Source: Vicinamibacterales bacterium (GTDB taxonomy: Bacteria > Acidobacteriota > Vicinamibacteria > Vicinamibacterales > 2-12-FULL-66-21). Taken from it: 64,000 bases of DNA. Numbering within the stretch: the first letter of the stretch is position 1; each line of letters begins with the position of its first letter. Under the pieces are notes generated by a model, which searched no databases, was not told the origin of the DNA, and saw only the letters and a list, made by a program, of their open reading frames with translations. The position numbers and the translations under genes are program-made. The stretch lies in assembly GCA_035699745.1 (NCBI GenBank), contig DASSPH010000055.1:1-64000 (forward strand), in the 5' to 3' direction. Positions 48,737 to 52,629 of this stretch are shown piece after piece.

Positions 48737-49852
48737 TCAGTCGCCGCCGGCGACGAGCTGCAGCAGCCGGTCGACGATCCGCTTCGCCGCGTCCGGGCGC
48801 GCCATGGCGTGCGCCGCGCGCCCCATCTCCGCGATGCGGCGCGAATCCGACGCCAGCGCCAGCAGTCGATCCGCGAGCAGCGGACCGGTCAGGTCCTTCT
48901 GCTCGATCAGCTCGGCGGCGCCGGCGCGGGCGAAGACCTCGGCGTTCTTCTTCTGGTGATCGTCGGCCGCCGTCGGCAGCGGTACGAGGATCGCGGCGCG
49001 CCCGACCGCGGCCAGCTCGGCGATCGTCGTCGCGCCGGCGCGGCTCACCACGAGGTCCGCGCCCTTCATTTCCCGGTCCATGGCGTAGAGGAACGGCTCG
49101 ACCCGGGCCTCGAGGCCCGCGGAGCGGTAGCCGCTCCTGACCATGTCCACGTCGCGCTCTCCTGTCTGATGCGTGATGTCCACGCCGCCAGCGGCTGCCA
49201 GCCGCGGCGCCGCCTCCACCATGGCCAGGTTGATTGCGTGCGCGCCCTGGGAGCCGCCAAAGATCAGGACCTTCGCCCGCCGGCCGTTGCCGCGGTCCGG
49301 CGGACGCTCCCCGTCGAAGAATTCAGGACGTACCGGGTTGCCTGCGACAAAACCCCTCCTGCCGAAGAAGGACACCGTCGAGTCGAACGTCACCGCCGCC
49401 GCGCTCACCACGCGCGCGAGCAGTCGATTGGTCATGCCGGGCACGGCGTTCTGCTCGGCGATGAGCGTCGGCACGCCGCGCAGCGCCGCGAGCATCACCA
49501 CCGGTCCCGAGGCATAGCCGCCGACGCCGATCACGACGTCCGGCCGGCGGCGGCTGATGATCCGCCAGGCATCGGCGAAGCTCAGTGGCAACAGCGCGAC
49601 GCCGCGAATCGCCGCCGGCGCCGAGCGCCCCTTCAAGCCCGCGATGCGGAGCAGATCCAGCTCGAACCCTTCGCGCGGCACCACCCTGGTTTCGATTCCG
49701 CGCGCCGTTCCGGCGAACGTGATCGTCGATCCCGGCCGCCGCGCCGCCAGCTCTCTGGCGATCGCGATCCCCGGATACAGATGGCCGCCGGTGCCGCCCC
49801 CGGCAATCACGGCGCGCAACGCGGCTGCCCCGAGTGAGCTCGAGAGGGTCAT
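48737..49852 (-). CDS. murG: UDP-GlcNAc:lipid I N-acetylglucosaminyltransferase MurG
   Basis: A 371-residue GT28 enzyme that makes lipid II at the inner face of the membrane. The glycine loops are AVIAGGGTGGHLYPGIAIA and VGGYASGPVVMLA; the UDP-GlcNAc region includes EQNAVPGMTNRLL, VLIFGGSQGAHAINLAM and VVSRAGATTIAELAAVGRA, with LPTAADDHQKKNAEVF. The start is ATG 49852, overlapping the ftsW stop in ATGA, so translation is coupled. Confidence 0.96.
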   Translation of the reverse strand: MTLSSSLGAAALRAVIAGGGTGGHLYPGIAIARELAARRPGSTITFAGTARGIETRVVPREGFELDLLRIAGLKGRSAPAAIRGVALLPLSFADAWRIISRRRPDVVIGVGGYASGPVVMLAALRGVPTLIAEQNAVPGMTNRLLARVVSAAAVTFDSTVSFFGRRGFVAGNPVRPEFFDGERPPDRGNGRRAKVLIFGGSQGAHAINLAMVEAAPRLAAAGGVDITHQTGERDVDMVRSGYRSAGLEARVEPFLYAMDREMKGADLVVSRAGATTIAELAAVGRAAILVPLPTAADDHQKKNAEVFARAGAAELIEQKDLTGPLLADRLLALASDSRRIAEMGRAAHAMARPDAAKRIVDRLLQLVAGGD

Positions 49853-50979
49853 GCATCCGCCGTCATTTCCGTGGTGATGACGTGCGTGGAGGAGGCGTAC
49901 TGCGAGACGTTCAGCAGGATGCCCATCCCGATCATGCTCATCAGCAGCGACGAGCCGCCGAAGCTGACGAACGGCAGCGGGATTCCCTTCGTCGGCAGCA
50001 GTCCGAGCACCACGCTGATGTTGAAGAACGCCTGCACGACCACCATGGCGGTGAGTCCCAGGGCGAGGAACGCGCCGAAGCGATCCGGCGCGCGGAGCGC
50101 CGTGCGCAGCCCGCGCCACGCGATCACGCAGAAGCAGGCCAGCACCAGCGACGTGCCGAGGAGCCCCAGCTCCTCGCCGATCACCGCATAGATGAAATCG
50201 GTTTCGGGGTACGGCAGATAGAACAGCTTCTGCACGCCGGCCATCAGGCCACGGCCGAAGACGCCGCCGGTGCCGACCGCGATCAGCGACTGAATCACCT
50301 GGAAGCCGTCGCCGAGCGGGTCCTGCCAGGGGTCGAGGAAGGCGAGCATGCGGCGGCGCCGGTAGTCGGCGCTCATCAGCACCAGATAGGCGGCCGGCAG
50401 CAGCACCAGCATCAGTCCGACGATGTAGCGGTAGTTGATCCCGGCGGCGAACACCATCGCGGCGACGATCACGATGATCGACAGCGCCGTTCCAAGGTCC
50501 GGCTGCAGCAGGATCAGCCCGACGATGCCGCCGAGCACGACGCCGACCGGGACCAGCGAGTAGCGCAGGTCGTCGATGCGGTCCATGCGGCGCTCGAGGA
50601 TCGCGGCCACGAAGAAGATGACGGCGAGCTTGGCGAACTCGGACGGCTGCACGCCGACGCCGGCGACGCCGAACCACCGCCGCGCGCCGTTGATGCGCGG
50701 GCCGAACAGCACGGCGATCAGCGCCAGCCCGACCAGCCCGAGCGCCGTCCACAGGACGATCGGCTGCCGGTAGTTGCGGTAGTCGACGCGCATCAGCACC
50801 GGCATCAGCACCAGGCCGAGCAGCGCGAACGTCGCCTGCTTGAACAGGAAGAACGACGGGTGCTGGTGCTTCTCCAGCGCGATCACGGCCGAGGCGCTGT
50901 AGACCATCACCAGGCTGGCGCAGACCAGCACCAGGATGGCGATGAACAGCAGCTTGTCCGATTTGAGTTTCCTGGCCAT
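49849..50979 (-). CDS. ftsW: Lipid II polymerase / SEDS protein FtsW
   Basis: A 376-residue polytopic SEDS glycosyltransferase partner of FtsI. About ten membrane segments are visible. Signature stretches are FGPRINGARRWFGVAGVGVQ, QPSEFAKLAVIFF, LQPDLGTALSIIVI, DFIYAVIGEELGLLGTSL, and the ending GIPLPFVSFGGSSLLMSMIG. The conserved catalytic aspartate lies within the large periplasmic loop area. It is separated from upstream murD by 264 bp, the longest gap in the cluster. Confidence 0.95.
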   Translation of the reverse strand: MARKLKSDKLLFIAILVLVCASLVMVYSASAVIALEKHQHPSFFLFKQATFALLGLVLMPVLMRVDYRNYRQPIVLWTALGLVGLALIAVLFGPRINGARRWFGVAGVGVQPSEFAKLAVIFFVAAILERRMDRIDDLRYSLVPVGVVLGGIVGLILLQPDLGTALSIIVIVAAMVFAAGINYRYIVGLMLVLLPAAYLVLMSADYRRRRMLAFLDPWQDPLGDGFQVIQSLIAVGTGGVFGRGLMAGVQKLFYLPYPETDFIYAVIGEELGLLGTSLVLACFCVIAWRGLRTALRAPDRFGAFLALGLTAMVVVQAFFNISVVLGLLPTKGIPLPFVSFGGSSLLMSMIGMGILLNVSQYASSTHVITTEMTADA

Positions 50980-51040
50980 TTGATCGTACCGTCACGCCTG
51001 CCGGCTAAAGCCCGGCCGGGGCGGAACCGAAACAACCCCC

Positions 51041-51160
51041 GAGCAGTCAGTTGTCATCAGCCGGTTGTGAGGGAAGACACCGACCTCGCAGACCGGGGCA
51101 GCCTGCGTTCCCAGCGGCCAGCTCTTCTCCGCCATTACCGACTGATGACAACTCACTCCT
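51041..51160. repeat. 20-bp inverted repeat pair around an 80-bp spacer
   Basis: GAGCAGTCAGTTGTCATCAG at 51041-51060 and CTGATGACAACTCACTCCTC at 51141-51160 match as inverted copies at 18 of 20 positions. The spacer is GC-rich with no gene. It may form an mRNA stem-loop between murD and ftsW or be the ends of a small decayed element. Confidence 0.6.
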
Positions 51161-51183
51161 CGGGGATATCGATCTCCCCGCTA

Positions 51184-51239
51184 CCCGCTTCCCGCTTCCC
51201 GCTTCCCGCTTCCGGCTTCCCGCTTCCCGCTTCCCGCGT
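51184..51239. repeat. Eight tandem copies of a 7-bp unit (CCCGCTT), G-rich on the transcribed sense strand
   Basis: Eight consecutive units from 51184 to 51239: six perfect CCCGCTT, one CCGGCTT (unit 5) and a final CCCGCGT. On the minus strand, which is the mRNA-like strand of the cluster, it reads GGGAAGC repeated, giving four successive GGG runs with 4-nt loops (51184-51211). It starts 5 bp after the murD stop. Confidence 0.85.
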
Positions 51240-51243
51240 CGAG

Positions 51244-52629
51244 TCACTGTTCCCTGATGCCGCTCCACTCGCTTTCGAGCCGCGCCACTTCGCGTTTGAA
51301 GACCTGGCCGCGCTCGGCGTAGTCCTTGAACATGTCGAAGCTCGCGCATGCCGGGGCGAGCAGGACGGTTTCGCCGGGGGACGCGAGGGCGAACCCGGTC
51401 CGCACCGCTGCCACCATGTCGGCGGCGTCGTGCACGGCCACCGCGGGTGACAACGCCTCGCGCACGAGCGGCGCCGCTTCCCCGATGGCGACGACCGACG
51501 CGGATCGCTCCACCAGGGCGGACGTCAGGTCGGCGAAGTCGCCGCCCTTGAAGCGGCCGCCGAGGATCACCACCAGGCCGGGCGCGAAGCTCTGAATCGC
51601 GCGCAGCGCCGCCTCGATGTTGGTGGCCTTCGAGTCGTTGACGAAGCGCACCCCGGCGATCTCCGCGACCGGCTCCAGCGCGTGCTCGAGGCCGGTGAAG
51701 GTCTCGACCGCGCGCACCATCGCGGGCGCCGCGACCCCGGCGAGCGATGCGATCGCCGTCGCCGCGACCACGTCGGCCAGCAGGTGCCGGCCGAGCACCT
51801 TGACCGACGACAGCGGCACCAGCGCCTGCTCGCCGTCGCGCGTGCGCCGCACGATCGCGTCGCGGGCGACGAGCACCCCTTCCAGCAGGTCGCGTGACGT
51901 GGCGAACAGCAGCCGCCGCGAGCGCGCTTCCTGCGCCAGCGCGTGGGACGGCTCGTCGTCCGCGTTGAGCACCGCCCAGTCGTCGGACGTCTGGTTCGCG
52001 AAGATCCGTGCCTTGGCCGCCGCGTACTCCGCCAGGTCCGCGTGGCGATCGAGGTGATCGGGCGAGAAGTTCAACAGCACCGCGATCCACGGATGGAAGG
52101 TCTCGGACCCCTCCAGCTGGAAGCTGCTCACTTCGACGACGTGGATCGTTTCTTCCGTGGAATCGTCCACCTGCGCGCTCAGCGCGTGCCCGATGTTGCC
52201 GCCGACCAGCACGCGATGGCCGCCGGCCTCGAGCATCCGCCCCGTCAGCGTCGTGGTCGTCGACTTGCCCTTGGTGCCGGTGATGGCGACGATGCGCCCG
52301 CGAAGCCAGCGTGAGGCGAGCTCCAGCTCCCCCATCACGGGGACGCCGGCGGCGCGCGCCGCGGCGACGTCGCGCTGGGTCAGCGGCACGCCCGGACTCA
52401 GCACGATCAGATCCGCCGATCGCAGCGTCCCGGCGCGGTGTCCGCCGAGCTCGAGCTCGACGCCGGCGTTGCGCAGCTGCCCCTCTTCGGGGATGGAAGG
52501 CTGAAGGTCGGTCAGCGTCACCGTGGCGCCGCGGCGCACCAGCAGCTCCGCGGCCGCCACCCCGCTTCTCGCGGCGCCGACGACGACCGCTTTCCGTCCC
52601 GCGACCGTGAAAGGAGTGCTGCCCGTCAT
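51244..52629 (-). CDS. murD: UDP-N-acetylmuramoyl-L-alanine--D-glutamate ligase
   Basis: A 461-residue Mur ligase adding D-glutamate. Features: [20 protein letters not shown] at the N-terminus, [23 protein letters not shown] loop [49 protein letters not shown], and the C-terminal [20 protein letters not shown] with [19 protein letters not shown]. The start ATG 52629 overlaps the mraY stop in ATGA. Confidence 0.96.

Follow-up and report, generated by a model that had tools for sequence, protein, structure and literature searches.

Stable hairpins between the genes of a bacterial operon are exemplified by the REP/BIME elements of Escherichia coli, which are multicopy and intercistronic and can protect the upstream mRNA. 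Regulatory RNA structures can also be borne by phages, as is the case for the put RNA of phage HK022. The L17 downstream element is a conserved structured RNA within a 3' untranslated region (3' UTR), a mode of regulation that its authors call highly unusual in bacteria, and the manA and wcaG RNAs are common to bacteria and phages (PMC2864571). Among short repeats, the heptamers of Xanthomonas and Nostoc occur genome-wide and are capable of forming G-quadruplexes (G4); oligonucleotides of the form GGGNATC fold as G4 in vitro, and the authors found no regulatory role for these repeats (PMC4692102).

The window analyzed here is a stretch of 64,000 nucleotides from a Vicinamibacterales bacterium (phylum Acidobacteriota), and the whole analysis was computed from DNA. 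It contains a tightly packed cell-wall and division gene cluster, in which the identities of MraY, MurD, FtsW, and MurG were confirmed by Pfam. The upstream gene murD (51244–52629, minus strand; Mur_ligase_M, MurD-like_N, and Mur_ligase_C) and the downstream gene ftsW (49849–50979, minus strand; FTSW_RODA_SPOVE, E 2.5e-112) are separated by 264 nt. The other gaps measured from mraY to ftsZ do not exceed 68 nt (mraY/murD, −4; ftsW/murG, −4; murG/murC, 1; murC/ftsQ, 2; ftsQ/ftsA, 68; ftsA/ftsZ, 11), such that the original prediction was right in calling this the only long gap of the cluster. Outside of the order Vicinamibacterales, murD and ftsW overlap or lie no more than 40 nt apart in 13 of the 15 genomes for which both genes were on the fetched piece.

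Directly behind the murD stop codon (TGA, 51246–51244) lies an array of GGGAAGC heptamers (51177–51237, minus strand), to which TRF assigned a period of 7, 8.7 copies, 94% matches, and a score of 108, the highest in the window. The longest period-7 self-match run in the array spans 23 bases, compared with 12 for the longest such run across 40 Markov-1 simulations. A 7-bp tandem array on the mRNA strand just past murD was what the original prediction had described, and only its finer details required correction: the first unit begins 6 nt rather than 5 nt past the stop codon (the first GGG, 8 nt past), and the order of the G runs is the reverse of that claimed. On the mRNA strand, three GGGAAGC units are followed by one CGGAAGC, three further GGGAAGC, one GGGTAGC, and a closing GGGG, which places three GGG runs before the mutated unit and five G runs after it. 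The G4 sequence rule is satisfied once in the gap (51176–51207); across the window it is matched twice, relative to a Markov-1 null of approximately 3.5 (loops of 1 to 7) or 0.7 (loops of 1 to 4).

In the original prediction, the array was suggested to be functional as a G-quadruplex, by making polymerase pause or by attenuating ftsW, or else to vary by slippage. Its fit to the G4 rule on the mRNA strand and the in vitro folding of related GGGNATC oligonucleotides (PMC4692102) speak for such a role, yet GGGAAGC was found in the murD-ftsW gap of none of approximately 24 named relatives, degenerate NGGAAGC/GCTTCCN tracts occur at approximately 25 other places in the source genome, mostly in spacers, and the analogous known heptamers have no identified regulatory role (PMC4692102). 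We therefore regard a functional quadruplex as highly improbable, and a G4 was rejected as the conserved feature of the gap. Because relatives lack the array at this site and degenerate copies occur elsewhere in the genome, it is probably a lineage-specific, local, and neutral repeat expansion in unconstrained spacer between the murD stop codon and the hairpin described below. The array may form a G4; its functional relevance finds no support in the present analysis. In some relatives, the gap holds unrelated 7-mers (GGGCTAA in L054; GTGGGTA/GTGGCTA in L055), and in many others it holds none. Degenerate GCTTCC/GGAAGC heptamer tracts were also seen in several spacers of an apparent ribosomal-protein gene cluster (L009, L016, L022, and L028, on G000:C85). 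The array resembles the heptamers of Xanthomonas and Nostoc in being built of 7-nt G-tract units with four G tracts, non-coding, dispersed, of variable length, G4-capable by sequence, and on the sense strand within 50 bp of a stop codon, and differs from them in its unit, which is GGGAAGC and neither GGGNATC nor GGGGA(C/T)T, and in being mostly degenerate elsewhere in its genome (PMC4692102).

Between the array and ftsW, the remaining half of the gap consists of an inverted repeat with 38-nt arms (51037–51074 with 51128–51165), which the original prediction did not mention. The full element, comprising arms and an apical domain, is a long RNA hairpin of 129 nt (51037–51165, minus strand), supported by the inverted repeat, RNA folding, blastn, covariation, and a model of the full element (R1). 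Its minimum free energy was −86.5 kcal/mol (z, −9.2), and it is present as a single copy in the source genome. The apical domain, or tip, of approximately 65 nt (51065–51129, minus strand) is the portion common to phages, as supported by an alignment of tips (A2), a model of the tip (R2), genomes of the order, and viral contigs. Atop the long helix, an asymmetric 8-nt bulge, GCUGGGAA (51108–51115, minus strand), lies opposite a single A and is followed by a stem of 7 to 9 bp, an apical loop CCCC (51095–51098, minus strand), and then AGGNNGGUGYC. Both bulge and loop are nearly invariant in A2, and the bulge motif GCTGGGA.C (RNA, GCUGGGA.C) is identical in all 28 of its rows, which include host, prophage, and viral tips. 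The GGG of the bulge could pair with the CCCC loop as an H-type pseudoknot; these columns are too invariant for covariation to bear on such pairing.

The hairpin is almost certainly a conserved RNA, as judged from the pattern of substitutions. In an alignment of 30 sequences, 96% of cells were paired, and 26 of the 49 pairs had changed on both sides, relative to a shuffled mean of 16.6, this pair count having been set against one control that ignores relatedness and a second that preserves it and gave a result in the same direction. Doubly changed cells numbered 143, versus a shuffled mean of 45.6 and 13 to 23 for slid-structure controls; compensatory changes thus exceed both shuffles and slid controls, as is expected of a structured cis RNA. 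In the alignment of apical domains from hosts, prophages, and viruses, 11 of 18 pairs showed compensatory change. On the sense strand, G-U pairs far outnumbered A-C pairs (189 versus 18 overall; 69 versus 4 in the prophage and viral rows), and therefore the form read from murD to ftsW is the conserved one, with the opposite strand ruled out as the RNA by the same count. This strand bias also bears on whether the element might instead be a palindrome or mobile element (MITE, REP, or cruciform) acting at the level of DNA, as its long inverted repeat and the weak scores of other short-repeat palindromes against its arms might suggest; given the G-U excess, a single copy at a fixed address, and no target-site duplication seen, we consider that reading extremely improbable, and MITE or REP identity was rejected on copy number.

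Relatives share the hairpin throughout the order. It was found by blastn in 51 of 60 relatives, and searches were extended with R1 and with R2, the latter a model of the 65-nt tip built from host and viral rows; the two models agree. R2 matched 153 of 162 Vicinamibacterales genomes and 99 of the 100 of high quality (completeness of at least 90% and contamination of at most 5%), with the understanding that model E-values are rough, that stricter filters were applied in the many-genome searches, and that many of the genomes are metagenome bins. Nearly all genomes of the order had one copy. Wherever all three parts were located, their order was murD-hairpin-ftsW (64 of 64 loci), and in many relatives the 5' arm begins at the murD stop codon itself. 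When 396 genomes from across the phylum were sampled, R2 yielded 42 matches, every one of them inside Vicinamibacterales. Two genomes with weak R2 matches (G160 and G186) have contigs that end inside the hairpin, beside murD. Judged from these genome sequences, the hairpin was gained at the root of the order and has been retained as a single chromosomal copy. The gap is long because Vicinamibacterales, an order found in soil, carry this conserved hairpin within it, and since the hairpin is order-wide while murD and ftsW mostly touch outside of the order, gap and RNA most likely arose together. The interpretation given in the original prediction is borne out insofar as the tract fits the G4 rule and insofar as the gap is special and could let murD and ftsW be expressed differently; its conserved content, however, is the hairpin and not the repeat.

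Several matches were set aside or stand apart from the element. R1 matches at G128:C15, G029:C235, and both G438 loci were false positives, being generic short-repeat palindromes that match the arms only, and further weak R2 matches in the source genome (E 0.04 to 9.5) look like coding DNA or chance. In one relative (L048, G102:C366), two tandem copies of the hairpin flank a run of N, probably a palindrome assembly artifact. Related genomes also contain long palindromes of AGTCGGC/CAGT short repeats (L165–L168), an odd class of repeat hairpin unrelated to the element.

Beyond its host address, the tip recurs on approximately a dozen viral contigs and also within five prophage-like regions. Extra tips lie in prophage-like regions of genomes of genus g24 (L162–L164), and tips in G080, a genome from another order, and in G008 are near phage-like genes. 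The viral tips (L172, L175, L177/L179, L178, L191, L201, L204, L218, L267, L270, L338, and L352) came from pattern scans of IMG/VR and were kept after a stem-pairing filter; L173, L174, L176, and L180 failed the fold check and were dropped, as were other loose viral pattern matches without the right stems. No similar copies were found in annotated phage and plasmid records. Pfam identified viral content in four contigs, namely terminase (L178), phage capsid (L338), DNA polymerase A (L177), and phage integrase (L270). In these phage copies, arms and stems vary and the tip is kept, and we infer that Vicinamibacterales are the hosts of the phages that carry it.

Most viral copies place the bulge within approximately 30 to 75 nt of the stop codon of a co-directional gene, and farther in L178, L270, and L338, with ORFs near viral tips called mechanically. 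The genes that follow the tip are convergent in L162, L163, L172, L177/L179, L191, L201, and L270 and co-directional, as in the host, in L175, L178, L204, and L338. A separate intrinsic-type terminator lies behind the tip in L177/L179, and a scan of 50900–51350 in the host revealed no terminator-like site: the G+C-rich stem followed by a U tract that defines an intrinsic (Rho-independent) terminator was not found there, and there is no U tract at the hairpin. The tip itself is therefore probably not the terminator. By eye, a short reading frame for a small zinc-ribbon-like protein ends just before the tip in L162, L164, and possibly L270 and L438, and the prophage tips of L162 and L163 adjoin genes that we named, also by eye, as HigBA-like toxin-antitoxin and ArdC-like antirestriction genes. 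In L270, a sequence like the 3' end of a tRNA lies approximately 100 nt past the tip, beside the integrase gene; it is probably the attachment site of a prophage with the tip as its last late element.

A second conserved element lies between the hairpin and ftsW: a TnTCGG-N16-CTTTAG box (51005–51032, minus strand). TnTCGG-N15/16-CTTTAG was present in 51 of 59 distinct hairpin-to-ftsW intervals in relatives, ending 5 to 133 nt before the ftsW start, and TnTCGG-N16-CTTTAG has only two exact matches in the source genome. It has the layout of a two-box promoter, which might be read on either strand; on the opposite strand (CTAAAG-N16-CCGANA), it resembles a promoter of the sigma-28 type. The only other exact match (L401, G000:C43:7467-7494) reads CTAAAG-N16-CCGATA; it is oppositely oriented and precedes a lipoprotein-like gene by a short distance.

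The hairpin might be a 5' leader that regulates ftsW, as a riboswitch or a protein-binding leader, for example, in autoregulation by a protein of the cluster. In the host it always lies upstream of ftsW, its conserved bulge and loop are aptamer-like, and the conserved box lies between it and ftsW. Against this, the phage copies come after stop codons, and the genes beyond them are often convergent, which leaves no co-directional downstream gene as a target of regulation; moreover, no Rfam riboswitch matched, even at relaxed threshold. With Rfam 15, the window yielded at gathering only a tRNA, located elsewhere in it, and the relaxed search returned chance matches, mostly to miRNA models and far below gathering; 11 relative and viral loci yielded tRNA only. 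A leader function is thus unlikely, if still worth entertaining. We tentatively favor, at below even confidence, a role for the hairpin at the 3' end of the gene that it follows, one that would separate expression of mraY-murD from that of ftsW-ftsZ and that phages would have reused; this is preferred over a leader mainly because there are phage copies without a co-directional gene behind them. In this view, the mraY-murD message would have its 3' end defined or shielded by the helix and the folded tip, to which a host factor might bind, or would be cut at this point; murD and the ftsW-ftsZ genes could then differ in expression level. Bulge and loop, both invariant, would adopt a specific fold (possibly the GGG/CCC H-type pseudoknot) that either is itself active or is recognized by a host factor, and phages would use the tip likewise behind late genes.

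This 3'-end role sits less easily with some observations. The scan of the host hairpin showed neither a U tract nor an intrinsic terminator, and a few upstream stop codons in viral contigs lie farther from the tip. If the hairpin did no more than cap 3' ends, its invariant bulge and loop and its occurrence as a single copy would call for an additional explanation, for example, a specific partner, and the co-directional next genes of L175, L178, L338, and L204, arranged as in the host, make an effect on the downstream gene possible. A compact and nearly invariant asymmetric internal loop, with an apical loop that could form a pseudoknot, would also suit a specific processing site or a small self-cleaving ribozyme, with the mRNA cut between murD and ftsW in the host and downstream of late genes in phages. 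The intergenic or 3'-UTR position and the occurrence in both host and phages fit as well, but no Rfam ribozyme family matches, and on balance we view such cutting as rather doubtful. Another candidate role, in trans after release from the operon, as a small RNA or as a decoy for a host RNA-binding protein whose partnership phages use or titrate, would agree with a sequence-specific tip that is single copy and universal in the order and that phages keep while arms and stems vary. It strikes us as distinctly unlikely, in that no conserved promoter of its own was found before the hairpin and the murD-ftsW address would need another reason. Finally, near the start of its long cluster and on the nascent transcript, the hairpin could by analogy with put or EAR modify RNA polymerase such that it passes terminators farther along the cluster; phage sharing fits the put precedent, yet the phage copies stand at the ends and not the beginnings of late gene blocks, which leaves this reading with very little probability.

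A broader proposal, likewise tentative, is that the apical domain represents a new functional RNA class (an aptamer, a ribozyme, or a protein-binding tip) that separates mraY-murD from ftsW-ftsZ across the order and that phages of these bacteria carry to gain access to the same machinery of the host. Few bacterial gene blocks are more conserved than the cell-wall and division cluster, and murD and ftsW mostly touch in nearby acidobacterial lineages; an order-wide RNA between them, outside of Rfam, would be a new handle on the balance between genes of precursor synthesis and those of septation. A core common to phages would point concretely to a host factor of which phages also make use, and the fold and its conserved residues make point mutations a direct probe of the hairpin's function.

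The hairpin apparently represents a structured RNA family that has not been described before, unusual in its genomic position and linked to phages; no published description of it was found in the literature searched, in which journal coverage was partial. Acido-1 and Acido-Lenti-1 (RF01686 and RF01687) are, like it, structured RNAs reported from Acidobacteria, and their models matched neither the window nor its relatives. As a stable hairpin between operon genes it is reminiscent of REP/BIME, which are defined by many copies per genome, whereas this element has one copy in the source genome and in nearly all genomes of the order, one fixed address, and a sequence-specific tip. Like the L17 downstream element (PMC2864571), it holds a 3'-UTR position and its strand was deduced from G-U pairs; unlike that element, it follows murD rather than L17, belongs to another lineage, differs in sequence and fold, and has no Rfam match. 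With put and with manA and wcaG it shares the trait of an RNA structure that phages and bacteria both carry, or that acts on the host; it differs from them in fold and in that its phage copies stand mostly at the ends of gene blocks.
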